This document shows, in pieces, positions 6,591 through 27,326 of a stretch of DNA of 49,169 nucleotides. Position 1 is the first letter of the stretch; the number at the start of each line of letters is the position of its first letter. The DNA comes from Acidimicrobiaceae bacterium (lineage in GTDB: Bacteria; Actinomycetota; Acidimicrobiia; Acidimicrobiales; Aldehydirespiratoraceae), in NCBI GenBank assembly GCA_009843915.1, contig VYCM01000112.1:1-49169 (forward strand), written 5' to 3'. The position numbers and the translations under genes were made by a program. The notes under the pieces are model-generated. The model saw nothing but the letters and a program-made list of their open reading frames with translations. It had not been told where the DNA came from and did no database searches.

Positions 6591-6593
6591 CGC

Positions 6594-9665: not shown

Positions 9666-9756
9666 GGCTGCGATGGCGGTCGCACGGATCCGATCCAGGT
9701 GCCGGTGGTCCTGGTGAGGAGACGCACGAACAGCCGCCTCAGGAACGACAGGGGGT

Positions 9757-11815: not shown

Positions 11816-13180
11816 CTACAGGCGAGGAGCCTGCGCGTGGTGGTCGGTCATGCACTGGAAGGCTTCGCCGACCGCCGCCAGGGTGCGGTCGGCGAAGGGC
11901 CGCCCGATGATCTGGAAGCCGATCGGCATCCCGTCGCCGGCGAATCCCCCGGGAAGAGCGATCGCCGGCAGTCCCGCCGCGTTGACCGGGAACGTGAACT
12001 GCGTCGTCGCGGGGATCAGCGGCACACCGCCGAGTTCGACCGCGCCGTGGTCGAGCACCTGGTTGGGATTGACGGGGGCGACGATCAGATCGACGCCCTG
12101 TTCGTCGAACACGTCGAGATAAGCGCGCTCGAACGACATCCGCTTGGCCTGGGCGGCAGCCAACGCGGTGCCCGGGATAGCCGCTCCGGAATCCATTATC
12201 GCCCGGGGCTCCTCGCCGATCAGATCGTTGCTGGAGGACCGCAGTTCCCCCAAGAGGGCAGCCGACTCGGCGAACACGATGGCGGCACCCGCGTCGAAGT
12301 GCTCGGCGGTGTGGGGCACCCGCACGGTGCGCACCTCGGCCACGACGGACCCGAGCACGTCGACGGCCTCCTCCATCACCGCCCGCACCTCGGGATCGGT
12401 CTCGAACCCGTCGAAGAAGCCCTCATCGGGCACTCCCAGCACCAGGGCTTCGGGCGCTTCGCCAGGCGCGAGCGCGGTCTCGGCCGAGTACGGATCCAGC
12501 CGGGAGAAGCCGGCCATGACGTCGAGCAGCACCCCGCAGTCGGCGGCCGTGCGGGCCATCGGGCCAACCGTGTCGTAGGTCCAGGAGATGAGATGGACGC
12601 CGTCTCGTGGAACTGCGCCCCTGGTGGTCTTGATGCCGGTCGTGCCACAGCAGTTCGACGGGATCCGCACCGACCCCCCGGTGTCGGTTCCCAGCGCGCC
12701 GAACACCTGCCGGGCAGCGACGCTTGCCGCGCTTCCCCCCGACGATCCGCCCGTCATCCGCTGGGGGTTCCACGGGTTGCGCGACGCCGGGCACGACACG
12801 CCGTAGGCCAGTTCATGGGTGTTGGTCTTTCCCACAATGACCGCTCCGGCGCTGCGCAGGCGGCTGACCACGGTCGCGTCGGCGTCCGGCGTGAACCCCT
12901 TGAGCGCTTCGCAGTTGGCCTCCGTGGCAACCCCCTGAGTGAAGAAGAGATCCTTGAGCGCGACCGGGACTCCGTGAAGGGGGCCACCAGCCTCGCCCCG
13001 GTCGAGACTGGCCGCATCTGCTCGGGCCGCGTCGGCCTGGACCGACGCGAACGCCCCGACCGCCGCGTCGGTCTGCTCTATCCGGGCCAGGGATGCCTCC
13101 AGCAGTTCAGAGGCGGTCACTGCCTTGGACCTCACCGCTTCGGCCGCCTCGATGAGGCTCATCTGTGTCAGGTCGGTCAT
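11816..13180 (-). CDS. Amidase, amidase-signature family
   Basis: The 454-residue protein has the complete Ser-cisSer-Lys triad: Lys76 (VALKDLF), the cis-serine Ser146 in TGGSSGGS, and the nucleophile Ser170 in GTDTGGSVRIPSN. It is GatA-like in sequence, but gatB and gatC are absent nearby, so a catabolic or salvage amidase is more likely than a glutamyl-tRNA amidotransferase. AAGGAAGG lies just upstream of the ATG. It follows the ABC importer by 30 bp, which links uptake to deamidation of an amide-containing ligand. Confidence 0.88.
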   Translation of the reverse strand: MTDLTQMSLIEAAEAVRSKAVTASELLEASLARIEQTDAAVGAFASVQADAARADAASLDRGEAGGPLHGVPVALKDLFFTQGVATEANCEALKGFTPDADATVVSRLRSAGAVIVGKTNTHELAYGVSCPASRNPWNPQRMTGGSSGGSAASVAARQVFGALGTDTGGSVRIPSNCCGTTGIKTTRGAVPRDGVHLISWTYDTVGPMARTAADCGVLLDVMAGFSRLDPYSAETALAPGEAPEALVLGVPDEGFFDGFETDPEVRAVMEEAVDVLGSVVAEVRTVRVPHTAEHFDAGAAIVFAESAALLGELRSSSNDLIGEEPRAIMDSGAAIPGTALAAAQAKRMSFERAYLDVFDEQGVDLIVAPVNPNQVLDHGAVELGGVPLIPATTQFTFPVNAAGLPAIALPGGFAGDGMPIGFQIIGRPFADRTLAAVGEAFQCMTDHHAQAPRL

Positions 13181-13210: not shown

Positions 13211-13897
13211 TCAGATCAACAACCGCCGGGCGACTCGCGCCGCCAGGTCGGGGTCGGCGGCCGGTCCGCTGTCGACGACCTCGCCCTTCTCGAGGACGAT
13301 GAAGCGGTCGGCGAGCCGCTTGGCCAGCTCGAGGTGCTGCTCGATGAGAAGCACTCCCCGCCCCGCATCTCTCGCCGATTCGATGTGATCGCCCAGCAGG
13401 GCGACGTTGGAGGGCTGCAACCCCTCGGTGGGCTCGTCCATAACCAGCAGCGACGCGTCCGTAGCCAGCGCGATCGCGGCAGCCAGCATCTTCTGCTCGC
13501 CGCCCGACAGTGTTCCCGTCCTCTGGGAGCCCCGTCCCGACAGAGCAGGACCGAACGCGTCGAGCACCCGATCATGGCTCTCGGAACCGAAGCCGCTGAG
13601 GCGAAGGTTGTCGCTGACCGTGAGCGCGCCGAACAGGGCCCGCTCCTGGAACGTGGCGCGCAGACCGGCCCGCACCCGCCGCGAGGGCGGCATCCGCGTG
13701 ATGTCGACACCGTCGAGGTGCAGAGCGCCTCCGGTAGAGCGCAGCACACCGAGGACGGTCTTCACCAGCGTGGTCTTGCCCGCGCCGTTGCGGCCCACCA
13801 GCGCGACGATCTCGCCGCTCGACACGGTGAGGCTCACGCCGTGAAGCACCGGCACTGTGCCGTAGCCGGAGCGCAAGTCGGTGGCTTCGAGACGCAT
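13211..13897 (-). CDS. livF: ABC transporter ATP-binding protein, LivF type
   Basis: The 228-residue ATPase has Walker A GRNGAGKTT, ABC signature LSGGEQK and Walker B LLVMDEP, with the size typical of LivF. It overlaps the stop of the fused LivMG gene by one base (TGATG), so it is translationally coupled. It would energise the hydrophobic amino acid/amide-type importer encoded directly upstream together with the ATPase half of LivMG. Confidence 0.9.
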   Translation of the reverse strand: MRLEATDLRSGYGTVPVLHGVSLTVSSGEIVALVGRNGAGKTTLVKTVLGVLRSTGGALHLDGVDITRMPPSRRVRAGLRATFQERALFGALTVSDNLRLSGFGSESHDRVLDAFGPALSGRGSQRTGTLSGGEQKMLAAAIALATDASLLVMDEPTEGLQPSNVALLGDHIESARDAGRGVLLIEQHLELAKRLADRFIVLEKGEVVDSGPAADPDLAARVARRLLI

Positions 13898-15636
13898 CAG
13901 CGGTCGACTCCCCCGTACACGGCCACCACCTCGGGGGCGTTCTCGACCTCGGCCACGGTTCCGTCGGCCAGCAGCGAGCCCCTAGCCAGCACGGTCACCC
14001 GGTCCGCAACTGCCCGGATGAACGCCATGTCGTGCTCGACGATCAGCACCGGCAGCCGGTATTCGGTATGCACCTCCCGCAGGAGCTCGGCCGCCGCGAG
14101 GCTCTCCGCCGCCGTCATGCCGGCGGTCGGCTCATCGAGCAGCAAGACGCGGCAATGCCCCGCCATCGCCATGGCGGTCTCCAGCCACTGCTTGTCGCCG
14201 TGGGAGAGCCCCCCGGCACCGGAGCCGGCCCGTGCGTCGAGTCCGGTGCGCTCCAGTATCCGCAGCGATGCCGGTGGCACCCGGGCCTCCCAGGCGGCGA
14301 AGGTCAGTCGCCAGGGCGAAGGGTCGGCTCCCCAGGCCGCCACCGCGATGTTCTCGGCCACCGACAGCGAACCGATGACCTGGGGTGACTGGAACTTGCG
14401 ACTCACACCGTGGCGGGCGAACTCCCAGGCCTTCAGGCCCGTGCAGTCCCGGTCGAGCATGATTACCGAGCCGTCTTGGCAGTCCTGCTGGCCGCAGAGG
14501 ACGTCGAGGAGGGTGGACTTGCCTGCGCCGTTGGGGCCGATCAGGCAGCGCAGTTCCGGTTCGTCCATGGTGAGGGTGACGCCGTCGAGGACCTTGAAGA
14601 ACCCGAAGGACTTGTCCACGCCGGTGGCCTCGAACACCGCTGAACCGTTGCCGGCAGCGGCGGCGGGGTCGGTGGCCAGCAGCGGAAGGTCGCGGCTCCG
14701 CCTCGGTGGACGTCCCGCCACTCGCAGCAGGCTCGGGACCAGCCCCTCGGGGACGAGGGCCACCGCCGCGACGAAGATCACGCCGGTGGCCAGGGTCCAG
14801 TACTGCAGCCACACGTCGGCGAGGGTCGCCGATGCGAAGTTGATGGCCAAGGTGCCGATGACGGGTCCGATGATCGTTCCCCGACCACCGACGAGCGTCC
14901 ACAGCACCACGTTCGTGGCGAGGGCGAAGCCGAAGATCTGGGGCGACACGAAACCGGTCCGGTGCACGTACAGGGCGCCGGCCAGGCCGGCGACTGCCCC
15001 TCCGACGGTGAAGACCCAGACCTTGAGGGCCACCGTGTCGTAGCCGAGCGCCTCCATGCGGCGCTCGTTGTCCCGGATGCCGATGAGCACCGCTCCAATG
15101 GGCCTGGTCGCCAACAGGCCGACCAGAGTGATGACGGCCACGGCCACGACCGAGATGAACAGGTCCTGGGTGCTGTCTGACCATTCCGACCCGAATGCAG
15201 TTATGCGTGGGATGTCGGTCAGGCCGTTGAAGCCGCCGGTCACGTCGCGCCATTGCTCCGCGACCTGCTCGAGGGTGAGCGACAGCACCAGGGTCAGCAG
15301 CCCGATGACGACCGGTGTGGGCCGGCGCCGGAACGCGGCGACGCCCACGCCGGCCGCGACGGTCGCGCCGACCAGTGTCGCCACCAGCAACCCGGGCAGG
15401 GTCAGCGCCGGTGCGGCGGTGGCGATGCGGGCGGTGGTGTAGGCCGCGATCCCGAAGGGCAGCAGCTGGCCCAGCGAGAGGATCCCCGCGTAGCCCCAGA
15501 CCAGGTCGAGGCTCACAGCCAGCACGGCAAGGCTCAGGAACAGCGACAGCTGCCCGGCCCGGAAGTCTCCCAGGGTGACGCTGGCGACCGCGGCGGCCGC
15601 CGCCGCGGTCGCGCCGTAGCCGAGCGGCCGCTTCAC
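13897..15636 (-). CDS. Fused LivM permease and LivG ATPase subunit
   Basis: The 579-residue protein starts at GTG 15636, which overlaps the livH stop (GTGA). The N-terminal part (about 1-300) is a LivM-type permease with about eight to ten helices, including GYAGILSLGQ and GGRGTIIGPVIGTLAI. A short linker follows (about 305-335). The remainder is an ATPase with Walker A GPNGAGKST, signature LSHGDKQWLE and Walker B LLLDEPTAGM. The LSHGxxQWLE form recalls urea-type UrtD and LivG proteins. The frame is open up to 15927, but the added residues are non-membrane arginine-rich shadow sequence. Confidence 0.88.
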   Translation of the reverse strand: MKRPLGYGATAAAAAAVASVTLGDFRAGQLSLFLSLAVLAVSLDLVWGYAGILSLGQLLPFGIAAYTTARIATAAPALTLPGLLVATLVGATVAAGVGVAAFRRRPTPVVIGLLTLVLSLTLEQVAEQWRDVTGGFNGLTDIPRITAFGSEWSDSTQDLFISVVAVAVITLVGLLATRPIGAVLIGIRDNERRMEALGYDTVALKVWVFTVGGAVAGLAGALYVHRTGFVSPQIFGFALATNVVLWTLVGGRGTIIGPVIGTLAINFASATLADVWLQYWTLATGVIFVAAVALVPEGLVPSLLRVAGRPPRRSRDLPLLATDPAAAAGNGSAVFEATGVDKSFGFFKVLDGVTLTMDEPELRCLIGPNGAGKSTLLDVLCGQQDCQDGSVIMLDRDCTGLKAWEFARHGVSRKFQSPQVIGSLSVAENIAVAAWGADPSPWRLTFAAWEARVPPASLRILERTGLDARAGSGAGGLSHGDKQWLETAMAMAGHCRVLLLDEPTAGMTAAESLAAAELLREVHTEYRLPVLIVEHDMAFIRAVADRVTVLARGSLLADGTVAEVENAPEVVAVYGGVDR

Positions 15637-16487
15637 GCCACCGCTCCAGCCGGTGTGGGCCGCCGGAACTGAAGGACCAGCACCGCCAGCGCCAGGGACG
15701 CGATCTGGGCCCACACCGCGTCGTAGAAGTGGATGACGCCCGTCTGGACCGCGGCCACGGTCAGCGCCCCCGCCGCCACGCCCCAGAGCCGGTTGTAGCC
15801 CCCGACTATCACCACCAGGAAGGCGCCCGGGAGATAGGCGAGACCGGCCTGCGGCTCGACGGCACCGAGCGGCGCCACCAGCGCTCCCGCTATCCCCGCG
15901 GTGGCGGCGCCGACACCGAACGCGCACAGATTGGTCATTCCGGTGCGGATGCCCGCCGATTCGGCCAGGTCGCGATCGGCGACGATGGCCCGTACCACCA
16001 AGCCGAAACGGGACCGGGTGAACGCCAGCAGGGTGGCCGCCACGACCACGGCTGCGATGGCGATGAGCAGGTAGCGGTAGGTGGGGAACAGGACGCCGAA
16101 GGCCTCAGTCGCGCCCGGCACCGGGTTGGGGACGCTCCGGAAGTCCTTGCTGAACACCAGCTCCGCGACCTGGCGGAGGCACACCGACAGCCCGAACGTG
16201 GCCAGGATCGTCAGCTCGGGCTGGCGGTGGATGCGCCGGATCAGGCCCACTTCGATCACGACACCCAGAACGAACAGCACGACCGCGGCCAGCGGCACGC
16301 TCAGCCAGTGGTTGAGGCCGACGGTGTGCACGACGTACGCCACGTACGCGCCGAGCATGACGAACTCGCCGTGAGCCAGGTTGATCACGCCCATGAGGCC
16401 GAAGACGATTCCGAGTCCGAGCGCGACGATGGCGAGGATTGCGAAGAGGCTCGCGCCGTTCAGCAATTCGAGTGTCAGCGCGTCCAA
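15633..16487 (-). CDS. livH: Branched-chain amino acid/amide-type ABC permease LivH
   Basis: The 284-residue permease has the characteristic N-terminal GLGIVFGLMGVINLAHGEFVMLGAY motif region of LivH/UrtB proteins and about eight membrane helices. It pairs with the permease half of LivMG. A strong hairpin separates it from the binding-protein gene upstream, which would allow lower expression of the permease than of the binding protein. Confidence 0.9.
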   Translation of the reverse strand: MDALTLELLNGASLFAILAIVALGLGIVFGLMGVINLAHGEFVMLGAYVAYVVHTVGLNHWLSVPLAAVVLFVLGVVIEVGLIRRIHRQPELTILATFGLSVCLRQVAELVFSKDFRSVPNPVPGATEAFGVLFPTYRYLLIAIAAVVVAATLLAFTRSRFGLVVRAIVADRDLAESAGIRTGMTNLCAFGVGAATAGIAGALVAPLGAVEPQAGLAYLPGAFLVVIVGGYNRLWGVAAGALTVAAVQTGVIHFYDAVWAQIASLALAVLVLQFRRPTPAGAVA

Positions 16488-16599: not shown

Positions 16600-18003
16600 C
16601 TAGGCCGGGTCGCAGGTCTCGTCGGGTTCCACCGAGGAGAACGACTGCACGATCAGCTGCGAGCCGTCGGCCTGGATCTCAGCCACGTAGATCGGCTGGG
16701 ACAGATGGCGGCTGCCGGTGATGGCGATGTCGCCTGTCGGTGTAGTCAGCGACAGACCCTCCATGGCGGCTGCCACCGCAGCGGTGTCGGTGGTTCCGGC
16801 TGCGTTGGCCGCCGCCGCGTACAGCAGCGCGGCGTCGTAGATGTGGGAACTGAACGTCATGTGGGGTGGCGCGTCGGCACCGAAGCGCTCGAAGTAGCGG
16901 CTCACGAACTCGTTGTTGAGGGCGCTGTCCACTTCCTTGAAGTAGCCCAGGGTGACCCGCATGCCTGCGGTTACCGCCGGTCCCATCGCTCCCAGGACGT
17001 TCTCCTCGTAGATGTTCGCCAGCCTGGGGATGGCGTCCTGGCCGATGCCGAAGTCCACCGCCTGGGTCTCGAAGGCAATGGCGTCACCCCCGACGAGCGC
17101 CGGGAAGATCAGGTCCGCGCCCGATCCCGCGATGATCTGGGCCACCGACGAGAAGTCCTGGGTACCCAACGGGACGTACTCTTCGCCGACCACCTCGCCG
17201 CCGGCGGCCTCGATGTACTGCCGCGCCAGTTCGAAACTGCGACGGGGCCACACGTAGTCGTTGCCCAGCAGGAACCAGGTCTGACCGCCGGTCTGCTCCA
17301 TCATCCACGGGATGACGGGCGCCAGTTGCTGGCTGGGCACCTCGCCGGTGTTGAACATCACCGACGAACACTCGCCGCCCTCATACAGGGCCGCGTAGAT
17401 GTAGAGCACGTCGGCGTCCTCCGCCAGCGGCTTGGCGGCCTGGCGCGTCGCGCTGGAGTGGGTCCCGAGGACCACGTCGACGTTGTCGGAGTCGATCAGT
17501 TGCTCCATGGCCTGCCGGCCGACGGCCGGATCGGTGGCGTCGTCAGCCAGGTAGGTCTCAACAGGCCGGCCGTTGATTCCTCCGGCCGCGTTGATGTCCT
17601 CTTCGATGAACTCGGCGATGTTTGATGTGGGTGGACCGAAGAGGCCGGCGGGACCGCTGTTGGAGAACAGGATCCCGATGCGCACCGGCTCTCCCGAGGG
17701 CTCGGCCGGCTCCTGCGGCTCGGGCTCGTCGGGCGCCTCGGTCGTCTCAGGCTCAGATGCCTCGGTCGTCTCCGGCTCGTCGGGCTCGGGCTCGTCGGGC
17801 GCCTCGGTGGTCTCAGGCTCGGGCGCCTCCTCTGAGTCGCTCGGTTCGGCAGCACCCGTGTCGGTCGCGGCCGTGTCCGAAGGAGCAGCCGGGGTCGCCT
17901 CTTCGTCATCCCCGCAGGCCGCGGCGATCAGAGCAAGGAGCGCGACGAACGCGGCCACAAACCACAAGCGCGACCGCGAGCGGGAGTCCGATGGTGTTCT
18001 CAT
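16600..18003 (-). CDS. AmiC/LivK-like substrate-binding lipoprotein of the ABC importer
   Basis: The 467-residue protein has a lipoprotein signal (basic n-region, hydrophobic core, lipobox LIAAAC with Cys30). An acidic Pro/Thr/Glu linker (31-105) follows, then a type I periplasmic-binding fold starting at VRIGILFSNSG. The segment WFLLGNDYVWPRR is typical of the AmiC/UrtA amide- and urea-binding branch. It should be anchored on the outer face of the membrane and feed LivH/LivMG/LivF. AGGAGG sits about 8 bp before the ATG. The ligand is unknown: a short amide, urea-like compound or aromatic acid is possible. Confidence 0.85.
   Translation of the reverse strand: MRTPSDSRSRSRLWFVAAFVALLALIAAACGDDEEATPAAPSDTAATDTGAAEPSDSEEAPEPETTEAPDEPEPDEPETTEASEPETTEAPDEPEPQEPAEPSGEPVRIGILFSNSGPAGLFGPPTSNIAEFIEEDINAAGGINGRPVETYLADDATDPAVGRQAMEQLIDSDNVDVVLGTHSSATRQAAKPLAEDADVLYIYAALYEGGECSSVMFNTGEVPSQQLAPVIPWMMEQTGGQTWFLLGNDYVWPRRSFELARQYIEAAGGEVVGEEYVPLGTQDFSSVAQIIAGSGADLIFPALVGGDAIAFETQAVDFGIGQDAIPRLANIYEENVLGAMGPAVTAGMRVTLGYFKEVDSALNNEFVSRYFERFGADAPPHMTFSSHIYDAALLYAAAANAAGTTDTAAVAAAMEGLSLTTPTGDIAITGSRHLSQPIYVAEIQADGSQLIVQSFSSVEPDETCDPA
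17700..17820 (-). repeat. Acidic PETTEAPDEP tandem repeat in binding-protein linker
   Basis: The linker contains PETTEAPDEPEP at residues 63-74 and again at 85-96, a 22-residue (66-bp) period, with shorter DEPETTEA variants between. It is a flexible acidic tether between the lipidated cysteine and the folded domain, and copy number could vary by slippage. Confidence 0.75.
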
Positions 18004-18113
18004 GACAAAGCCCTCCTATATGTGAGCAGTTATTGACATATTGTCGGATAGGAGGGGCGCGGTCAAGTCCCGAGGGATCGTCCGTTGAAGGACGACCGAC
18101 CGGCGCGGGCCTG
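18004..18113 (-). promoter_or_regulatory. Leader of the importer binding-protein gene
   Basis: This 110-bp gap is locally AT-rich. It contains the imperfect dyad GACATATTGTC (18035-18045), and TATTGACA at 18031-18038 (TGTCAATA on the minus strand) recurs upstream of the ArsR gene. CCCTCCTATA (18011-18020, minus strand) includes the ribosome site of the downstream gene. I cannot assign a confident -35/-10 pair. Confidence 0.35.
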
Positions 18114-19553
18114 CTAGGACGCTTGGGTGGCGGCGGGGAGTTCGTCCAGGACCCGGACGCCGGAACGGGTCGCTTCGCCGAGCAGCAACGACTTGAGGGA
18201 GCCGCCCCGGGTGCAGCACCGGGGACCGTTGAAGGTGGATCTGCGTAGGCCGCTCAACAGTGCGGTCGGCTCCACTCCCCCGCCGGCCCGGCACGAGCGG
18301 GCCCAGGTGTGGATCGCTTCGTACACGCCCTCCGCGGCGGCCGAGACGGGCGGGGAGCAGGACCCGAACCGGTCCGAGTAGCGCCGGAGGAACCCGCGGT
18401 TCTCCGACGTGTCGAGCGCGACGAAGTAGCCCAGAGCATTCCAGGTGCCCTCACCGGACTCGCCGAGATGCTCGACCACGGCATCGTCCATGAGCGGGGC
18501 GAACGTCCGGATGCTGTCTCTGAGGCCGTATGCCGCGAAGTCGCGCTGGAAGCCGACATGGTCCTGGCCGACGAAGCTCGACACCACATGGTCGACGCCG
18601 CTCCGCTGGATGGCCGCCAGCAACGGTTCGAAGTTCTGCGATCCCAACGGAAGGTAGCCCTCGCCGGCGATGTGGCCATCCATGCGCTCGATGACGGCTC
18701 GCGCCGTTGCGCCGACCGCGCGGGGCCACGAGTAATCGTTGCCGGCCAGGAACCAGCGGGACCCGCCCGTCTGTGCGGCCATGCGCGGCAGTGCATGGTG
18801 GAGCTGGTCCATCGGCGTCTCGCCGAAACGGACGAGCAGTGGATGTTCTGTCGTCGGCTCACTCGTCGGCGTGTAGAGGTAGGGGATGCCCTCTGCTAGC
18901 GCCATGGGGGCGGTGACCGCGTAGGTGGCCGAGGAGTGCATCCCGATCACGGCGGCGAGGCCCGGTGTGCGGCACAGGCGGCGCATAGCAATCGCGCCTA
19001 CGCCTGGGTCAGTGGAATCATCGCCTACGACCAGCCTGACGGCTCGGCCCATCACACCACCGTCGGCGTTGACCTCCTCGACTGCGAGTTGCGCGCAGTT
19101 CGCAGTCGAGCGACCCAGGATCCCCGCCGGACCTGACAGGGAGATCAGGAGGCCAAGAGGCACCTCCCACAATCCCGTCTCGTAGCCGTCGAGCAGCCCC
19201 AGCTCGGCGCCGAGGCGAGCTACCTCGAGGTCATCGATCGTCACACGGACCCGCAACCGCGTGCCCCCGCTGTCCAAGGGGTCGAAGCGGCAGACGACAC
19301 GGCCCGCCCAGGGTGTCTCGTGCATCAAGTCGATGCGGCGGTTCGGCTGGCACGAGAGCACCCGGGCTGTCCCCGGCGACCGGGCCAGGCCGCCGAGGGG
19401 AAGCGCTAGGCGGACCAGCGCGCCGGGTGTGAGCAGGGGTGCCTCAGACCCGAACAGCCACCCGATGGCCGCGTCGCCCTGGCCGAAGAGCGCGAACAAC
19501 TCGCTGGGGCAGGCCTCCAGCCGCAGTTCGTTGTTGAGGACGAGCTCACCCAT
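18114..19553 (-). CDS. SRPBCC domain fused to AmiC-like periplasmic-binding fold, cytoplasmic sensor candidate
   Basis: The 479-residue protein has no signal peptide or membrane segment. Residues about 1-130 look like an SRPBCC/AHSA1 ligand-binding domain (PWAGRVVCRFDP, GGTRLRVRV). Residues about 138-470 are a type I periplasmic-binding fold clearly paralogous to the lipoprotein encoded next to it (TGGSRWFLAGNDYSWPR against TGGQTWFLLGNDYVWPR). AmiC of Pseudomonas is a known cytoplasmic regulator with this fold. ATG 19553 lies 10 bp after the ArsR stop; an upstream start at 19583 would overlap it. A ligand-sensing partner of the ArsR repressor is inferred. Confidence 0.75.
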   Translation of the reverse strand: MGELVLNNELRLEACPSELFALFGQGDAAIGWLFGSEAPLLTPGALVRLALPLGGLARSPGTARVLSCQPNRRIDLMHETPWAGRVVCRFDPLDSGGTRLRVRVTIDDLEVARLGAELGLLDGYETGLWEVPLGLLISLSGPAGILGRSTANCAQLAVEEVNADGGVMGRAVRLVVGDDSTDPGVGAIAMRRLCRTPGLAAVIGMHSSATYAVTAPMALAEGIPYLYTPTSEPTTEHPLLVRFGETPMDQLHHALPRMAAQTGGSRWFLAGNDYSWPRAVGATARAVIERMDGHIAGEGYLPLGSQNFEPLLAAIQRSGVDHVVSSFVGQDHVGFQRDFAAYGLRDSIRTFAPLMDDAVVEHLGESGEGTWNALGYFVALDTSENRGFLRRYSDRFGSCSPPVSAAAEGVYEAIHTWARSCRAGGGVEPTALLSGLRRSTFNGPRCCTRGGSLKSLLLGEATRSGVRVLDELPAATQAS

Positions 19554-19563
19554 GAGACCGCGT

Positions 19564-19926
19564 CTACGCGCTGCGCTCTTCAATTCGGCCGCCGGAGACG
19601 TCCTCCGGAGTGGCCGCGCCCTGCACGGCCGACGCCAGCTGCTCCAGGGAGTTCTGATACACGGAAGTGAGGAAGGCCACCACCGCGTCGGCCGGCGTAG
19701 GTGTGACCGAGTAGTGCCGGAACCGGCCGTCGCGGCGCTCCGCCACCAGCCCGGCGAGGCGGAGTATTCGCAGATGAGACGACACCGCAGTACGTCCCAA
19801 CGAGTCGAAGTGCGCGGCGATCTCGCCCGCGGTCAACTCCTCGTGCTCGCCGATCAGGCTGAGGATGGCCCGTCGAGTGGGGTCGGCGAGAGCCGAGAAG
19901 ATGGCGTCACTGTCGGAGGGGGCCAT
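19564..19926 (-). CDS. ArsR-family winged-helix transcriptional regulator
   Basis: The 120-residue protein has the classic ArsR opening (IFSALADPTRRAILSLI), a recognition helix region (RTAVSSHLRILRLAGLV) and the beta-wing (RRDGRFRHYSV). It lacks metal-binding cysteine motifs such as CVC, consistent with the ArsR branch that partners with SRPBCC proteins. AGGAGG lies 4 bp before the ATG at 19926; GTG at 19929 is an alternative. As first gene of the long unit it probably autoregulates and controls the importer and catabolic genes. Confidence 0.88.
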   Translation of the reverse strand: MAPSDSDAIFSALADPTRRAILSLIGEHEELTAGEIAAHFDSLGRTAVSSHLRILRLAGLVAERRDGRFRHYSVTPTPADAVVAFLTSVYQNSLEQLASAVQGAATPEDVSGGRIEERSA

Positions 19927-19992
19927 CACGCCTCCTGTGTCTGTTTGTCAATACTTGCGCACACATGTTGCCACACCGGCGATCAGCCTGCC
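19927..19992 (-). promoter_or_regulatory. Upstream region of the arsR-led catabolic unit
   Basis: The 66-bp gap between the ligase stop and arsR contains TGTCAATA at 19946-19953, the same octamer found in the leader of the binding-protein gene. TGTGT (19936-19940) and ACACA (19961-19965) form weak outer arms. It is a candidate autoregulatory operator; no promoter is certain. Confidence 0.35.
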
Positions 19993-21453
19993 CTAGAGAC
20001 CGAGTTCGTGCTTCTTCACCTTGCCCAGCGACGTGCGCGGCAGGTCGCGGACGAGGATCCACGCTCGTGGCCGCTTGTAGGCCGCGAGCCGCTGCTCGCA
20101 CCATTGCTCGAGGGTCGCAGCATCGGGCGGCGCCCCGGCTTCAGGGACTATGAAGGCCACCGGCACCTCGCCCCAGCGCTGGTCGGGCCGTCCGATGACG
20201 GCTGCCTGGGCCACCGCAGGATGTTCGCCCAGTACCCGCTCGACCTCCGCGGGATAGACGTTCTCCCCGCCGGAGATGATTAGCTCGCGGACGCGGCCGG
20301 TGATGTAAACGAATCCGTCTTCGTCGAGGCGGCCGACATCCCCGGTCCGGTACCACCCGCCCTCGAAGGCTCGGGCCGTCTCGACGGGACGGTTCCAGTA
20401 GTGGGTGAACAGGTTGGGCCCCCGCAGCCATAGCTCCCCCGCCCGGCCCGGCGCGACGTCGGCGCCCGCGGTGTCGACGAGCCGCAGCTGGCAGTGCTGG
20501 GCCGGTCGGCCGCATGAGCCGATCCGGTCCGCGTCGCCGTAGTCGAGCACGACCGCGGTCGGGCCCGTCTCGGTCGCCCCATAAACCTGCACGACCCGCA
20601 CGCCGTAGGTGTTGAAGCGCCGGATGAGTTCTTCGGGAACGATCGAGGACCCGCAGTTGAGGGCACCGAGTGAGTCGAGGTCTTCGGGGATCAGCGAGCC
20701 GCAGCCCAGCAGGGCCTCCATGGCCGTCGGCACGAGCAACAAGTGCGTCGGCCGGTGGCGGCGCATGATCGCCACGAGGCCGTCCGGCTCGAACCTCTCG
20801 GCGAGCACGACCGTTCCGCCGGCGAACAGGCAGGGAACGGTCTGGATGTTGAGCCCGCCGACATGGAACAGCGGCAGGACCGAAGCGACGACCGAGCCGG
20901 TGCCGAACCCCTCGTGAGCCACCCCGTTCAGGACGGTGTAGTGAAGCGACCGCTGCGTCAGCACCGCACCCTTGGGCGTGCCCGTCGTGCCCGACGTGTA
21001 CACCAGCAGCAAGGAATGCTCCGGTGCGCCCTGCTCCCGAGCGCCCGGTTCGGCGTCGAGAGCCAGAGCGGTGAACGCATCCAGGTCTTCCGGTTCAATG
21101 CCGGCACGGCGGAGCAAATCCTCAAAGGCCGCCTCGGCCAGCACCACCGATGGCTCGCAGTCTCCAAGCTGGAAGCGAACCTCGGGAGCAGTCAGCCGGT
21201 TGTTGACAGGAACCAGGACCGCTCCTAGATGGGCGCAGGCGAAGAGCAGTTCCAGCAGCTCGACGCGATTGAGGGCGCACACGGCCACGCGGTCGCCCGT
21301 ATCCACGCCGCGGCTGCGAAGTTGCGCCGCCATGCCTCGAACCCGGGCCGCCAACTCGGCATAAGAGAGCTGCCCGCGATCGCTGACGACGGCCGTGCGC
21401 TGCGGCGTCCACTGGGCCCAGTGATCGATCCAGCCGAAGATGCTCGCTCTCAT
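19993..21453 (-). CDS. AMP-forming acyl-CoA synthetase (aryl/acyl-CoA ligase)
   Basis: The 486-residue class I adenylate-forming enzyme has YTSGTTGTPKG (AMP/phosphate binding), YGATETGP, YRTGDVGRLDEDGFVYITGR and the C-terminal catalytic Lys region RTSLGKVKK. This is the standard 4-coumarate:CoA ligase-like architecture. It activates a carboxylic acid as the adenylate and then as the CoA thioester. It lies 23 bp downstream of the molybdenum hydroxylase small subunit and is the last gene of that unit, suggesting that the hydroxylase or a later step uses a CoA-activated aromatic acid. Confidence 0.88.
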   Translation of the reverse strand: MRASIFGWIDHWAQWTPQRTAVVSDRGQLSYAELAARVRGMAAQLRSRGVDTGDRVAVCALNRVELLELLFACAHLGAVLVPVNNRLTAPEVRFQLGDCEPSVVLAEAAFEDLLRRAGIEPEDLDAFTALALDAEPGAREQGAPEHSLLLVYTSGTTGTPKGAVLTQRSLHYTVLNGVAHEGFGTGSVVASVLPLFHVGGLNIQTVPCLFAGGTVVLAERFEPDGLVAIMRRHRPTHLLLVPTAMEALLGCGSLIPEDLDSLGALNCGSSIVPEELIRRFNTYGVRVVQVYGATETGPTAVVLDYGDADRIGSCGRPAQHCQLRLVDTAGADVAPGRAGELWLRGPNLFTHYWNRPVETARAFEGGWYRTGDVGRLDEDGFVYITGRVRELIISGGENVYPAEVERVLGEHPAVAQAAVIGRPDQRWGEVPVAFIVPEAGAPPDAATLEQWCEQRLAAYKRPRAWILVRDLPRTSLGKVKKHELGL

Positions 21454-21476: not shown

Positions 21477-21944
21477 CTATTCCATCCGGGCGAGCGCCAC
21501 CGACAGGACGGCGTCGATGATCTTGCTGTACCCGGTGCAGCGGCAGAGATTGCCGGCCAAGCCCTCACGTATGGCGGCACCGTCCGGTTCCACGCCGTCG
21601 CGCAGCAGCTGTTCGGCGGCCACAACCATGCCCGGCGTGCAGAACCCGCACTGGGCGGCGCCGTGGGTGACGAAAGCCTCCTGCAGGTCGTTCATCATCC
21701 GCCCGCGCCCCGCGATGCCCTCGATGGTGGTGATATCGGCCCCGTCGATCTGTCCGACGGTCTGCAGGCACGACACCACCGATCGGCCGTCGACGATCAC
21801 CGTGCATGCGCCGCAGTCCCCCGTGAGACATCCCCACTTCGTGCCGATCAAGTGGAGCTGCTCGCGCAGCACGGACAGCAGGGTGTCGGACGGATCGACC
21901 GGCTGGACCACTGGATCGCCGTTGACGGTGATGCTGATCCTCAT
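21477..21944 (-). CDS. Molybdenum hydroxylase small subunit, two [2Fe-2S] clusters
   Basis: The 155-residue protein has the plant-type [2Fe-2S] motif (GCLTGDCGACTV plus a later SCLQT cysteine) and the second all-helical cluster motif (CGFCTPGM and LCRCTGYSKI). It matches CoxS/HcrC/XdhC-type small subunits in length. ATG 21944 overlaps the FAD-subunit stop by 4 bp; upstream extension to 22118 is shadow. It passes electrons between the molybdenum centre and FAD. Confidence 0.93.
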   Translation of the reverse strand: MRISITVNGDPVVQPVDPSDTLLSVLREQLHLIGTKWGCLTGDCGACTVIVDGRSVVSCLQTVGQIDGADITTIEGIAGRGRMMNDLQEAFVTHGAAQCGFCTPGMVVAAEQLLRDGVEPDGAAIREGLAGNLCRCTGYSKIIDAVLSVALARME

Positions 21945-22876
21945 GCCCGCGCGCCCGAGGAAGCTACGGCCGACTCCCGACCGTTCACCGGAGCGAGCCC
22001 GCCGGACCACAGCCCCGCGGCCCTGGCATGGGCGATCGACAGGGCCCTCGCCGCCAGCACGCCGGCGACGTGGCGGCGATGCTCGGCCGTTCCGCGGGTG
22101 TCGCTGATCGGTTTGCACGCGGCCGACGCGGCCGCGCTCACGGCGCCGAGTCGCTCGGTTGTGGGTGGCGCGCCCGCGAGCAGCGCTTCGAGTCCGGGTA
22201 CCAGCACCGCGGTGGGTGCGACCGCGCCGAGCGCCACCCGTGCCTCCTGGACGGCTGCCTCCCGGCCCGTTCCGTCAGTCAGGACCCAGGCAGCGACACC
22301 CACTCCTGCAAGATCCATCGCCCAGCGGACCGTCTGGCGCAGATAGCACGAGCCGCTATGGGCAGGAGTCCGCAGGCGCACGTTCGTCAGGATCTCGCCA
22401 GAGGCCAGGATCGTGGTCCGGGGCCCGGTGGCGAAGTCAGCGACAGCCCACCGACGCTCGCCATCGGGGCCCTGGATCGCCACGACGGCGTCGTGGACCA
22501 TCAGCGGCGGTGCCATCTCGGCGGCCGGCGAGGCGGTGCAGAGATTCCCGCCCAGCGTGGCCATGTTGCGGATCTGCACCGAGCCGAGGACCCTGGCCGC
22601 CTCCGCCAGGGCCGATGCTCGGACGATGACCGCCGGGTCGGATTCGATCTCCCTGACGGTGGCCGTCGCGCCGAGGTGCAACTCGTCGCCGTCCCAGTGA
22701 ACGTCCCGGAGTCCGTCGATTCCGGTCACGTCCACGAGCGGCGCCTGGGGGTCGGCGCGGCCGAGCCGGCGGTCGATCACCAAGTCAGTGCCGCCCGCGA
22801 TGACCATCGCGCCCGAATTGGCGGCCAGGATCGCCACGGCCTCGCTCACCGACCTCGGCCGGCAGTAGCCGTTCAC
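21941..22876 (-). CDS. Molybdenum hydroxylase medium subunit, FAD-binding
   Basis: The 311-residue protein shows FAD-binding motifs typical of CoxM/HcrB-type subunits: VIAGGTDLVIDRR near the N terminus and IRNMATLGGNLCTASPAAEMAPPL. GTG 22876 overlaps the large-subunit stop (GTGA). I see no cysteine-rich [4Fe-4S] insertion like the one in the beta subunit of 4-hydroxybenzoyl-CoA reductase. That argues for an ordinary hydroxylase over a dearomatising or dehydroxylating reductase. Confidence 0.92.
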   Translation of the reverse strand: MNGYCRPRSVSEAVAILAANSGAMVIAGGTDLVIDRRLGRADPQAPLVDVTGIDGLRDVHWDGDELHLGATATVREIESDPAVIVRASALAEAARVLGSVQIRNMATLGGNLCTASPAAEMAPPLMVHDAVVAIQGPDGERRWAVADFATGPRTTILASGEILTNVRLRTPAHSGSCYLRQTVRWAMDLAGVGVAAWVLTDGTGREAAVQEARVALGAVAPTAVLVPGLEALLAGAPPTTERLGAVSAAASAACKPISDTRGTAEHRRHVAGVLAARALSIAHARAAGLWSGGLAPVNGRESAVASSGARA

Positions 22877-25197
22877 CGTGCGTTCTCGTCTGGCACGGGA
22901 TGCGGGTGCTTGTCCACGTGGGAGCGCTCGCCGGTCTCGATCCATCGGCGCAGCTTCCAGGGCCGGATCGGATAGGACCGGGGCCGCACCCCCACCGCGT
23001 CGGCCACGGCGTTGGCGATCGCCGCGGGCGGAAGGATGATCCCTCCCTCGCCGATCCCCTTGGCACCGAAGGGTCCGAGTTCGTCGGCGGTCTCGATGAG
23101 GGTCACATCGATCGGTGGGGCGTCCATGGTGGTGGGCATGCCGTAGTCGTGGAGGTTCGGGGCCGGGAACCGGCCGTCCTCCACCGGGAGTTCCTCGCTC
23201 AGCGCGAGGCCGACGCCCATGACCGCACCGCCCTCTATCTGGCCCTCGCAGCTCATGGGATTGATGGCCCGTCCCACGTCGTGCGCGGCCCACAGCCCGA
23301 GGACCCGCACCATCCCGGTGTCCGGGTCGACCTCGATCTCGGCCACATGAGCCCCGAAGCCATAGCTGGCGGAGATGTTGCCGACGTAGTTCTCGTCCTG
23401 GCGCTGGGTGGGCGGGTCGTAGAAGGCAGAGGTCATGATGATTGAGCTGCCCTCCCGTAGCAGCCGCCGGCGCACGGCCTTCTCGTAGCGGAGGGTTGCG
23501 GTGGGCTCTCCGGGCACCGAGATGACTCCGTCCCGGATGGTGAGCGACCGGGCCGGACGGTCGAGCACCTCTGCTGCCCCCTCCAGGAGCTCGTCGCGGG
23601 CCTTGGCCGCGGCCATGCGGGCCGCGTTGCCGGCGACGAAGGTGGTACGGCTGGCGTGAACGCCCACATCCCAGGGCTTGACGTCGGTGTCGTCGTGGCT
23701 GACGCTGACCGCTTCGAGCGGCACCCCCAGCGTCTCGGCCACGATCATGGCGAGAGCCGTCTCGGAACCCTGCCCGAGTTCCGAGGATCCGGAGATGAGG
23801 GCGACCCGTCCCGAGTCGTCGATCTTGATCATGGCCCCGCAGCCGTCCGATCCGTAGATGCGGGCACCGCCGCCGACGTGCACGTACGCGGCCGCGCCGA
23901 GCCCCCGGTGCTGGCGGCGCATCCGGCCGCGGCGCTGGTCCCAGCCGGACTTGCGCCTCACCGTCTCCAGGCACTCACTGAGCCCGCAGGACGTGATTTC
24001 CAAGCCTTGGGGGGTCACGTCGCCGGGGCGGTTGGCGTTCTTGAGCCTCAGGTCCATCGGGTCCATGCCCAGGACGTCGGCCAGCTCCTCCATCTGCTGC
24101 TCGACCGCGAACGTGGCCTGGGGATTGCCGAAGCCCCTCACCGAGCCGCCGTAGTTCTTGTTGGTGTAGACGACCTTGGCAGCCAGTCGCGACGTGCCGA
24201 CCCGGTACATGGAGGTAACGGTGTTCATCGCCACCAGCAGCGCGTGCGAGCCCCAGGCGTTGTAGGCGCCATTGTCGGAGACGACCTCGGCGTGGCGAAA
24301 CAGCAGGGTGCCGTCGGCGGCGGCGCCCGTTCGCAACCGGAAGTGGATCGGCTGGCGGGTGCGGGTGCCGGTGAACTCCTCCTCGCGGCTCATGGCCAGC
24401 TTGACCGGACGCCTGGCAGCCCTGGCCAGCATCACCGCGATGAAGTCGTGGGCGTCGATGTCGATCTTGCCGCCGAAGCTGCCGCCCACTGGGGGCTGCC
24501 TCACGGTGATGCGCCGCCAGTCCAGTCCGAGGCAGTCGGCCAGCTCCTTGCGGTACATGAACACCATGTGCACCGGGCTGATGACCTCCAGGTCGCCGTC
24601 AGCATCGAAGCCGGCGATGACCACATGCGTCTCGATCGGCGCGGGAGCCGCCTGGGGGCTCGAGTAGCTGCCGCTCACGATCACCGCCGAGCGCTGCTCG
24701 GCCTCGGCCAGATCGCCGGTCTGGAAGTTCCACTCCATCGACACGTTGCCCTCGATGTCGAGTTCGTCGTGGATCCGGGGAGCGCCCGGTTGCAGGGCCT
24801 CGAAGGGATCGTCCACGGCGGGCAACAACTCGTAATCCACGCGGATCAGGTCGAGAGCGCGCTGGGCGGTCGCCGCGTCCACAGCGGCGACGGCGGCCAC
24901 CTCGTCGCCGACACAGCGCGCCACCCGGTCCTTGAGAGGGATGTTGTCGTGTCCGAAGCCGAACGGGCGCTGGGTGACATTGCCAGCATGGATCACTGCA
25001 TACACACCCGGCAAGGCCTCGGCCGCGGAGACGTCGACGCTTAGGATCCGAGCGTGCGGGTGGGGGCTGCGCTTGATGGCCCCGGTCAGCAGCCCGCTCA
25101 TCTTCAGGTCGTCGGCGTAGACGGTGCGCCCGGTGACCTTGTCGGGGGCGTCGAGCTTCGGGATCCGCTTGCCCACGACTGCGTAGTCGGACCGCAT
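22873..25197 (-). CDS. Molybdenum hydroxylase large subunit (xanthine dehydrogenase family)
   Basis: The 774-residue subunit begins SDYAVVGKRIPKLDAPDKVTG, the usual opening of CoxL/HcrA-type subunits. It has the cofactor-binding GGSFGGK and RGFGNPQ motifs, GSSELGQGS, and the catalytic glutamate in FGAKGIGEGG. It should bind molybdopterin cytosine dinucleotide and hydroxylate an electron-poor carbon, often next to a ring nitrogen or on an aromatic CoA thioester. ATG 25197 is chosen over the open frame to 25401 because family alignment begins there. It is the first gene of its unit, divergent from the ADP-forming CoA ligase. Confidence 0.92.
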   Translation of the reverse strand: MRSDYAVVGKRIPKLDAPDKVTGRTVYADDLKMSGLLTGAIKRSPHPHARILSVDVSAAEALPGVYAVIHAGNVTQRPFGFGHDNIPLKDRVARCVGDEVAAVAAVDAATAQRALDLIRVDYELLPAVDDPFEALQPGAPRIHDELDIEGNVSMEWNFQTGDLAEAEQRSAVIVSGSYSSPQAAPAPIETHVVIAGFDADGDLEVISPVHMVFMYRKELADCLGLDWRRITVRQPPVGGSFGGKIDIDAHDFIAVMLARAARRPVKLAMSREEEFTGTRTRQPIHFRLRTGAAADGTLLFRHAEVVSDNGAYNAWGSHALLVAMNTVTSMYRVGTSRLAAKVVYTNKNYGGSVRGFGNPQATFAVEQQMEELADVLGMDPMDLRLKNANRPGDVTPQGLEITSCGLSECLETVRRKSGWDQRRGRMRRQHRGLGAAAYVHVGGGARIYGSDGCGAMIKIDDSGRVALISGSSELGQGSETALAMIVAETLGVPLEAVSVSHDDTDVKPWDVGVHASRTTFVAGNAARMAAAKARDELLEGAAEVLDRPARSLTIRDGVISVPGEPTATLRYEKAVRRRLLREGSSIIMTSAFYDPPTQRQDENYVGNISASYGFGAHVAEIEVDPDTGMVRVLGLWAAHDVGRAINPMSCEGQIEGGAVMGVGLALSEELPVEDGRFPAPNLHDYGMPTTMDAPPIDVTLIETADELGPFGAKGIGEGGIILPPAAIANAVADAVGVRPRSYPIRPWKLRRWIETGERSHVDKHPHPVPDENAR

Positions 25198-25277
25198 TGA
25201 CCGGCGAGTATGTTTCAATATGTAGTGACATGTCAAACCTATTGAGCCGCGGGCGGGCACGCCGTGCGCGTTGAGCC
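25198..25277. promoter_or_regulatory. Divergent promoter region with nested dyad
   Basis: The 80-bp region separates the molybdenum hydroxylase unit from the plus-strand ligase. It is locally AT-rich. TGACATGTCA (25226-25235) is a perfect 10-bp palindrome nested within arms TCAATA (25215-25220) and TATTGA (25240-25245). This is a strong candidate operator for coordinated control in both directions. Confidence 0.6.
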
Positions 25278-27326
25278 GTGACTGAGATTCCGGACCTGAA
25301 CCCGCTGTTCCTGCCCCGGTCAGTGGCGGTGTACGGCGCTTCCACCCGCGATCCGTCCAGACTCGGGAACCGCCTGCTGCGCAACGCCATCGACTCGGCA
25401 TTGGACGAAGTGAGGGTGATCAGTCCCTCCGCAGGCACGGCTGAGGGTCTTCGCACCACTCGCTCACTGGCCGGTGGTGTGGACCTGGCGTTGATCTCCG
25501 TGCCAGCAGTGTCCGTGGAGGCCGCCATTACCGACGCCGCGGCCGGCGGCGCGCGGGCCGCGATCGTGCTGACGTCAGGCTTCGGCGAGACAGGCCAGGA
25601 GGGCCGGGCCGCTCAAGAACGGCTCCGAGCGATCGCTTCCCGAGCGGGGATGCGGTTCCTGGGCCCCAACTGCATGGGAGTGATCAGCCGGCTGGACGTC
25701 GGGGGGTGGATGAACGGCTCCTACTTCTGGGACGTCGACCTCGCGCCGGGCGGGGTGACCATGCTCAGCCAGTCCGGCGCGTTCGGTGGCATGTTCCTCG
25801 CAGAGATGAGCCGGAGGGGTCTAGGGGTCAGCCGGTTCGCCAGCCTCGGCAATGCTGCCGACATTGACGAGACACAGGTCTTGAGGTGGCTCGCCCAAGA
25901 CGACCAGACCAGGGTCATCGGCCTGTTCGCAGAGGCACTGTCCGGAGGGCGCGGCTTCGTTGAGACCGTGCGTTCGATAACTGGCGAGCGACCGGTGGTG
26001 GTGCTGAAGGCGGGCAAGACAGCCGCCGGCGTCCGGGCCGCCATCAGCCACACCGGCTCCATCGCCGGCGCCCACGGGGCGGCGTCGGCCGCACTCAGCC
26101 GAGCAGGCGCGATGGAGGCGCAGACAGCTGATGAGTTCTTCGACCTCCTGGCGTTGGCCGCCTCCTCGATGCGGCCCCCCGCCGGCCCGCGACTAGCCGT
26201 CGTGACGATTTCGGGAGGACCGTCAGTGCTGGCGGCCGACGAGGCAGAACGGCTGGGCCTCGTCCTGCCACAGCTGGCTGACTCGACACTGCGGGCCCTC
26301 GATGCCGTCGTGCCCTCGTTCGCCGCGACCGGCAACCCTGTCGACCTGACCCCTCAGTGCCCACCTGAGGCGTTCGCGCCCGCAGTGGATGCCGTCTATC
26401 GCGATCCAATCGTCGACGGAGTCGTGGTGATCGACTGTGGCCTCGACAGCGGAGACCTCGCGGATGCGATCACCGCAGCCCACAAGCGCACCAACAAGCC
26501 GACGGTGGCCTTCGTAACCGACACGCCCGTCGTGGCCGGGAGGCTCGCGGCGGCCGGTGTGCCCCTGCTGCCCTCGCCCGAACGAGCCGTGAGAGCCTTC
26601 GCGTCACTGATGCGACGGTCGCCGAGAGGGCTCTCGATGCGGGGGCCGGGCCGCTCGCTGACCGAAGCCGGTGCAGCTGAGCCCCGAGGCCTCACGACTC
26701 TGACGGAATGGGAGTCCAAGCAGAGGCTGCGAGGCCTTCCCCTGGTTCCGGAGCGTCGGACCAGATCGCTGGCCGAAGCCGCCCGCGCCGTCGAGGAGCT
26801 GCGAGCCCCGTTCGTCGCGAAAGCCTCCGGCGTCGCCCACAAGTCGGAGCGAGGCCTGGTGAGGTTGGACCTGTCCCCCGAAGAAGTTCTCGACGCCTGG
26901 GAGGAACTTGCCGGCGCAGGCGACGGCACCGTCCTCGTTGCCGAGTTCGTCCGAGGCGAGCTGGAGCTCGTTGTCGGTGGTCTTCGCGATCCGCACTTCG
27001 GGCCGGCCGTCACGATCGGGCTGGGAGGCACAGCGGCCGAGATCTTCGACGACACCGCCACCGTCCTCGTCCCGCCCGAACCGGGTGAGGTCGAGTCCGC
27101 GGCCAGGGCACTCAGAGGTGCTCCGCTGCTCCACGGCTACCGGGGTGCCAAGCCGATAGACCTCGACGCGCTCGAGGCAATCGTCCAGGCCGTGGCCGAC
27201 GCCCTCCTTGAGCAAGACGAGATCATCGAGATCGACTGCAACCCCGTGATCATCAGCGAAGGCGCTCCGAGAGTGGCAGACGCCCTAGTGGTCATCAGGA
27301 TCCCGCGCGATAATTCAATTAGATAA
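25278..27326 (+). CDS. ADP/NDP-forming acyl-CoA synthetase, fused alpha and beta subunits
   Basis: The 682-residue protein contains the CoA-binding Rossmann domain (LFLPRSVAVYGAS), succinyl-CoA-ligase-like domains with LGPNCMGVI and LSQSGAFGG, the phosphohistidine loop SHTGSIAGAH, and a C-terminal ATP-grasp domain (about 460-680) ending in EIIEIDCNPVII. These enzymes interconvert acyl-CoA and acid with ATP and phosphate. The start codon is GTG. It is divergent from the molybdenum hydroxylase operon. It may activate a catabolic acid or recover ATP from a CoA thioester product. Confidence 0.87.
   Translation: MTEIPDLNPLFLPRSVAVYGASTRDPSRLGNRLLRNAIDSALDEVRVISPSAGTAEGLRTTRSLAGGVDLALISVPAVSVEAAITDAAAGGARAAIVLTSGFGETGQEGRAAQERLRAIASRAGMRFLGPNCMGVISRLDVGGWMNGSYFWDVDLAPGGVTMLSQSGAFGGMFLAEMSRRGLGVSRFASLGNAADIDETQVLRWLAQDDQTRVIGLFAEALSGGRGFVETVRSITGERPVVVLKAGKTAAGVRAAISHTGSIAGAHGAASAALSRAGAMEAQTADEFFDLLALAASSMRPPAGPRLAVVTISGGPSVLAADEAERLGLVLPQLADSTLRALDAVVPSFAATGNPVDLTPQCPPEAFAPAVDAVYRDPIVDGVVVIDCGLDSGDLADAITAAHKRTNKPTVAFVTDTPVVAGRLAAAGVPLLPSPERAVRAFASLMRRSPRGLSMRGPGRSLTEAGAAEPRGLTTLTEWESKQRLRGLPLVPERRTRSLAEAARAVEELRAPFVAKASGVAHKSERGLVRLDLSPEEVLDAWEELAGAGDGTVLVAEFVRGELELVVGGLRDPHFGPAVTIGLGGTAAEIFDDTATVLVPPEPGEVESAARALRGAPLLHGYRGAKPIDLDALEAIVQAVADALLEQDEIIEIDCNPVIISEGAPRVADALVVIRIPRDNSIR

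Follow-up and report, generated by a model that had tools for sequence, protein, structure and literature searches.

The window analyzed here is a single contig of 49,169 nucleotides (VYCM01000112.1) from an Acidimicrobiaceae bacterium whose assembly (GCA_009843915.1, 3.24 Mb in 151 contigs) is 88% complete. On its minus strand lie, just as the sequence-only reading had described them, a gene for a 120-residue ArsR-family winged-helix regulator (19564..19926) and, 10 bp further on, the gene of a 479-residue protein (18114..19553); the ArsR stop codon occupies 19564-19566 and the ATG of the second gene is at 19553. Domain matches and profile comparison identify the longer product as a fusion protein. 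After a gap of 110 bp the strand continues with the UrtA/AmiC-like substrate-binding lipoprotein of an ABC importer (16600..18003), a permease of the BPD_transp_2 type (15633..16487), a permease fused to an ATPase (13897..15927, an open frame whose true start lies downstream of the listed one), the importer ATPase (13211..13897) and an amidase (11816..13180; PF01425, 1.5e-98). A Rieske oxygenase (10637..11797) belongs to the same gene cluster and is followed downstream by a LigB-type dioxygenase, a peptidase-like gene and two alpha/beta hydrolases. Taken by themselves, the Rieske oxygenase, the LigB-type dioxygenase and the two hydrolases found at 5811-11797 suggest the breakdown of an aromatic, perhaps nitrogen-containing, compound. 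Upstream of ArsR, also on the minus strand, are an AMP-binding CoA ligase (19993..21453) and the [2Fe-2S], FAD and large subunits of a molybdenum hydroxylase (21477..25401). The Rieske oxygenase, the ligase and the hydroxylase are not constant among the loci compared below.

Three operator-like dyads related to the pattern TGTSA-N8-TGACA accompany these genes. Upstream of ArsR is TGTGCGCAAGTATTGACA (19946..19963, minus strand), with one mismatch, and upstream of the gene of the substrate-binding protein is TGTGAGCAGTTATTGACA (18021..18038, plus strand), with none. Directly adjoining the latter we noticed by eye a possible promoter of the importer operon (TTGACC, 17 nt, CAATAT; 18038..18066, minus strand). 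This promoter rests on that reading by eye, since a consensus promoter scan of 17900-20100 called no sites. A third, weaker dyad with one mismatch (25213..25230, strand not assigned) lies between the putative start of the large-subunit gene of the molybdenum hydroxylase (about 25203, minus strand) and a CoA-ligase-like gene at 25278 on the plus strand.

The fusion is composed of an SRPBCC/AHSA1-like domain (residues 1-122), a linker (about 123-130), a type I periplasmic-binding fold (131-445) and a diverged C-terminal tail that reaches residue 479. The binding fold had been placed at about 138-470 from the sequence alone; the fold itself was right and the start was not, the match to Peripla_BP_6 beginning near residue 131 and extending to 445 (6.9e-72). 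Peripla_BP_5 also matches this domain (2.8e-42), and the scores for PF13458 (243.4 bits, cut-off 31.7) and PF13433 (145.6 bits, cut-off 27) assign it to the AmiC/UrtA group, in agreement with the AmiC-like character proposed before. The nearest solved chains are likewise of UrtA and AmiC type, with 8tg1 at 6.3e-30 and the AmiC chain 1pea at 2.3e-16. Inspected by eye, the N-terminus (MGELVLNNE) has neither signal peptide nor lipobox, as the earlier reading had it, and the conserved domain fills the protein from residue 1, so that the export signal or lipoprotein leader of an ABC substrate-binding protein is missing. The substrate-binding protein encoded next to it (16600-18003) does open with a lipoprotein-type leader. 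The sequence thus indicates that the fusion is probably located inside the cell, and genes annotated as ABC substrate-binding proteins in loci of this kind probably encode regulators.

The nature of the N-terminal domain had to be approached by profile comparison. Residues 1-122 gave no Pfam or NCBIfam match, and among six N-domains of relatives one matched PF10604 at 0.02, below the cut-off, which no Pfam family reached. An hhalign comparison of 14 diverse N-domains with 18 AHSA1 domains gave a probability of 95.7 and a score of 52.7 over 95 columns, whereas 40 column shuffles reached at most 17.6, the reversed AHSA1 alignment 9.5 and an ArsR alignment 10.7. An earlier run, with the Acidimicrobiia sequences and the copy of genome G311, had given 93.6 and 44.0 (30 shuffles, at most 9.7). 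The similarity to SRPBCC/AHSA1 therefore exceeds chance by the shuffled, reversed and ArsR controls. Against a small set of six other SRPBCC-type sequences the probability was only 0.1 in the earlier run and 11.8 in the later one. CoxG, which the adjoining molybdenum hydroxylase had brought to mind as the nearest SRPBCC relative, was not used, the small set of CoxG/Polyketide_cyc2-like sequences having scored low. When 396 genomes of the phylum were searched with an N-domain profile at 1e-4, four matches were obtained: the source locus, the fusion of genome G639 and two free-standing proteins, both members of Polyketide_cyc2 (1.7e-16 and 5.3e-16). An AlphaFold2 model built from 17 sequences was of low confidence (mean pLDDT 63.4, below 50 at residues 9-37 and 115-148); its N-domain shows a strand (4-12), two helices (16-22 and 35-40), five strands and a helix (108-117), an order compatible with a helix-grip fold. 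Profile comparison places residues 1-122 in SRPBCC/AHSA1, and the SRPBCC-like domain proposed for about residues 1-130 is supported by this and by the Polyketide_cyc2 proteins retrieved, with no Pfam match to add.

Is the fusion real? The third-position GC of its reading frame (0.85) indicates a coding sequence. A homologue search recovered 30 loci, 17 of them with the whole fusion, all 17 free of stops and 60-99% identical; in the other 13 the match was limited to the binding-fold part or less. Together with eight plasmid records described below, these copies rule out a sequencing or assembly artefact, the explanation on which the fusion might have been found only here. One copy, 88% identical, has an internal TAG (genome G014, locus L038). 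The 17 loci come from metagenome-assembled genomes whose titles name Acidimicrobiia, Acidimicrobiaceae, Acidimicrobiales or Microthrixaceae; the two exceptions are L013 ("bacterium") and L014 ("Acidobacteria"). The cluster in L014 is 80% identical to the source locus, and is probably a case of a mislabelled bin or of transfer.

The gene order around these copies is conserved to very different degrees. ArsR is directly upstream of the fusion in 17/17 full-length loci. The importer substrate-binding protein is present in 16 (locus L010 ends early), and both permease genes, the ATPase and the amidase are all found in 14, the other three being on short or reordered contigs. Even in L011 and L012, where the importer block is inverted, it still adjoins ArsR. 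The CoA ligase accompanies four of the 17 and the molybdenum hydroxylase three. Searches of genome sets that overlap one another found the full-length fusion in 9 of 61 related genomes, all of the genus of the source (in a further genome an N-terminal fragment lies where a contig begins), in 4 of 395 genomes of the class and in 2 of 396 of the phylum. These prevalence figures depend on the profile used, because profile A2, made from Acidimicrobiia alone, retrieved no distant fusion and the wider profile A5 did. The distant copy is in G639, from another family of the phylum, where ArsR (9132-9467 of locus L133) precedes a fusion that starts at 9481. Together with the plasmid copies, it rules out a fusion confined to the source lineage. 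Genome G311 has two copies, one on a contig recovered twice (L021 and L053) and a second (L058, L069) that also has ArsR directly upstream. Around this second copy (contig 75, L069:8388-18954) we found its own UrtA-type importer, an amidase and a carbon-nitrogen hydrolase, and upstream of it a haem aldoxime dehydratase with a perfect dyad in its promoter. No amidase adjoins the ArsR-fusion pair in the stretches examined of L133 and of the plasmid locus L141.

The ArsR assignment is firm, with HTH_20 (2.9e-12), HTH_5 (5.5e-10) and NF033788 all above cut-off. Its sequence has no cysteines, and neither do 15 of the 16 other Acidimicrobiia sequences; the sixteenth, L012, is over-extended upstream in the computed gene call. 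The cysteine-based metal site of an ArsR metalloregulator is thus absent, making a metal-thiolate signal unlikely. ArsR genes are frequent neighbours of ordinary AHSA1 proteins, as 18 of 30 loci from related genomes show, so an SRPBCC domain would be the natural ArsR-facing part of the fusion. These pairs share with our locus the ArsR beside an SRPBCC domain and differ from it in that the binding fold is lacking and in that only 1 of 17 ArsR promoters tested bears the dyad. In five loci (L079, L082, L083, L090 and L091) ArsR matches in long open frames overlap AHSA1 matches, suggesting that ArsR-AHSA1 fusions also exist.

The sequence-only reading knew of no described family with this combination, and here our results differ. 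We searched 72,556 plasmid records at 1e-20 and found 678 that match the fusion protein, eight of them over at least 80% of its length: Rhodococcus rhodochrous BAA870 and BX2, R. pyridinivorans P23, PE41 and 4-4, R. aetherivorans N1, Rhodococcus sp. PD04 and Paenarthrobacter aurescens TC1. ArsR is upstream of the fusion in all eight, so that the adjacency proposed for checking holds in the 17 Acidimicrobiia-type loci, in G639 and on the plasmids. In seven of these records, which come from soil bacteria, a nitrile hydratase is found no more than 9 kb away, and an amidase is nearby in six, in the stretches viewed. Searching with the N-domain alone returned seven records, each at the same fusion. 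The fusion of the BAA-870 plasmid pNit is 38.4% identical over 92% of the query, the domains aligning end to end, and the genes are in the order ArsR, fusion, nthB, nthA, accessory protein, cobalt transporter and amidase. We take this to be the order nhlD, nhlC, nhlB, nhlA, nhlE, nhlF and amidase of R. rhodochrous J1, and the pNit fusion to be the counterpart of J1 NhlC. According to work of 1996, J1 NhlC is said to be AmiC-like and a positive regulator, and NhlD ArsR-like and negative, with control dependent on amides; the same strain reportedly has, for nitrile hydratase regulation, an AmiC-like NhhC and a MarR-like NhhD. On sequence grounds the ArsR-fusion pair fits the NhlD/NhlC kind, known in outline from the regulation of nitrile hydratase. 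Both have an ArsR gene, then an SRPBCC-like plus binding-fold protein (472 residues in BAA-870), then target genes that include an amidase, and in BAA-870 the dyad precedes ArsR and nthB. The differences are an identity of about 36% and the targets, which are nitrile hydratase, cobalt transporter and amidase there and an ABC importer-amidase operon at the source locus. Our literature search for nhlC, nhlD, nhhC, nhhD and nitrile hydratase regulators gave no useful account, the 1996 papers lying outside its coverage; it also returned nothing on the SRPBCC part or on the combination of ArsR, SRPBCC and periplasmic-binding fold. The excerpted report on BAA-870 describes a plasmid cluster with nitrile hydratase, two amidases and regulators, and lists four nitrile hydratase regulators (PMC6941271).

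Next in similarity within the phylum come binding proteins that have neither the N-terminal domain nor a visible signal peptide and that are found beside another repressor. MarR adjoins them in 4/4 phylum loci examined (G580 outside) and in 4/4 plasmid loci, the latter taken from 86 matching records, 8/8 in total. Their contexts include nitrile hydratase in R. pyridinivorans PE41 and Rhodococcus sp. M8, an aliphatic amidase in R. jostii RHA1, and AmiS plus amidase in Mycolicibacterium arabiense. Signal-less AmiC-like proteins beside or divergent from MarR were seen across Actinobacteria (L134:6941-8697, L135:7644-9207, L136:902-2466, L137:8096-9736 and L153:3446-5059). On the R. pyridinivorans plasmid pPE111 (L139, L143) the two kinds of pair occur together, MarR with an AmiC-like protein and ArsR with the fusion, and each pair adjoins its own nitrile hydratase genes. 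We liken the MarR pairs to the type of the mycobacterial acetamidase operon, and presumably to NhhC/NhhD as well. They resemble our locus in the signal-less binding-fold protein, the winged-helix regulator and the amidase or nitrile hydratase genes; they differ in that the binding protein is free-standing, without SRPBCC, and MarR replaces ArsR. AmiC-AmiR of Pseudomonas aeruginosa is similar in having a cytoplasmic sensor with an AmiC/UrtA-kind periplasmic-binding fold linked to amidase genes, and different in that it has neither SRPBCC nor ArsR and that AmiR is an RNA-binding antiterminator; in the loci examined the partner gene of the fusion is ArsR, not an AmiR-type antiterminator. UrtA/AmiC-type substrate-binding proteins of ABC importers belong to the same fold family and differ in being exported and in lacking the N-terminal domain.

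The repressor neighbours bear on a different role for the fusion. ArsR could have a ligand of its own or act alone, and the fusion could be co-expressed without regulating anything, assisting the pathway in an enzyme-like or storage capacity. Solitary action is frequent among ArsR proteins, and the two need not touch. Against such a role stand the absence of cysteines in the ArsR of the source locus, the fact that across loci the fusion keeps ArsR and not the downstream enzymes, and the sister binding proteins that likewise adjoin a repressor gene, that of MarR. We consider it improbable.

A further question concerns the origin of the binding domain, which might have arisen recently by duplication of the adjoining importer protein, with loss of the export signal, and have no history of its own. 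The adjacent protein is indeed the best match of the fusion in its own genome (37% identity with the binding domain). We analyzed a tree of 36 sequences, leaving out L003, L004 and L045 (wrong-strand or very distant). In the best tree the ten fusions cluster together (100/98), the MarR-paired proteins are their sister group (91/85, a value not starred), and the importer proteins of the source-locus type fall outside both, branching next. The second copy of G311 also groups with the fusions, though the importer protein adjoining it falls in another group, which weakens the idea of a recent copy. The topology joining fusions with importer proteins was not rejected (p-AU 0.199), leaving a recent copy with a small chance of being correct.

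The dyads provide the evidence about the genes controlled. A 20-mer pattern was read from the two upstream regions of the source locus, so both sites match it by construction; over the whole 3.24-Mb assembly it had one other match with up to two mismatches, and the reversed control none. A pattern-free test of 18 loci, one by one, gave best common 20-mers of 14-17/20, and since 25 shuffles of each reach 14-16, single loci are marginal. Distant loci led us to a shorter dyad, TGTSA-N8-TGACA. With at most one mismatch it was found in 14 of 19 promoter windows from eight loci (six perfect), against about 0.3 expected from shuffles and none among six control windows, a count that is not a clean test because the dyad was partly shaped on the loci counted. 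Perfect sites found after it had been fixed precede amdA-nitrile hydratase and follow the fusion in Paenarthrobacter. The misses were both windows of L021 (two mismatches), both of L139 (three) and the ArsR window of L141 (two); in L139 a dyad with one mismatch falls a little within the first gene of the operon as annotated. Scanning ten loci produced 25 matches, about 21 of them distinct and five away from the expected places, and among five near-identical Rhodococcus ArsR promoters three have two mismatches. Elsewhere the dyad precedes amidase, nitrile-hydratase or aldoxime-dehydratase genes. Besides, perfect copies occur between a MarR gene and nitrile hydratase, with a further ArsR gene downstream (L139:814, L143:6968, L144:6967), and one with a single mismatch precedes another, unpaired ArsR gene on a plasmid that also bears the fusion pair (L141:2133). 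The earlier proposal was control of the importer and of catabolic genes. Shared operator-like sites support control of the importer operon; for the molybdenum-hydroxylase genes the weaker site makes it possible.

All these data lead us to propose a two-protein switch of amide type, which we regard as probable. ArsR would act as repressor from the dyads at its own promoter and at the promoter in front of the ABC importer-amidase genes; the dyad at the molybdenum hydroxylase promoter would probably be used as well. The cytoplasmic AmiC/UrtA-type domain of the fusion would close on an amide or related compound delivered by the importer; an amide-like inducer is indicated by the ligand-fold companion together with the amidase, the aldoxime dehydratase and carbon-nitrogen hydrolase of G311 and the nitrile hydratase context. 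The SRPBCC domain would be the likely docking arm towards ArsR, and the loaded fusion would remove or disable the repressor, allowing expression of the importer, amidase and catabolic genes. The idea of a combined ligand sensor is well supported.

The sign of the control is less certain. That the loaded fusion relieves repression by ArsR we infer by analogy with NhlC and with mycobacterial AmiC. In the excerpts of the two sources, AmiC of mycobacteria is a positive regulator and AmiA a negative one (PMC12719403), and AmiC of Pseudomonas acts negatively, by silencing AmiR (PMC13209695); the latter leaves the sign uncertain. The fusion might accordingly be an AmiC-like co-repressor that, unliganded, aids repression by ArsR or silences an activator, and that the ligand sets free. 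The Pseudomonas protein is its precedent; the mycobacterial one and NhlC, reportedly positive, speak against it, and we find this quite unlikely. We also count against an inducible switch that nitrile hydratase is reported, in the same excerpted account, as constitutive in R. rhodochrous BAA-870, a carrier of the pair (PMC6941271). As for the two-protein switch, the SRPBCC domain may, with a chance slightly under even, be an adaptor, borrowed from ArsR-SRPBCC pairs, that lets an AmiC-type sensor otherwise paired with MarR act on ArsR.

Rhodococcal nitrile hydratase serves as an industrial catalyst, and that amides induce it has been known since the 1990s. The literature searched gave no explanation of how an AmiC-like protein influences a repressor of the ArsR family. 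The SRPBCC part, the dyad and the exchange between MarR and ArsR make this regulation directly testable, and in Acidimicrobiia the same switch would serve an importer-amidase operon. If the adaptor reading is true, Actinobacteria would have a modular family of amide and nitrile switches with two interchangeable repressor families and one sensor fold, the ArsR side having TGTSA-N8-TGACA as common operator.
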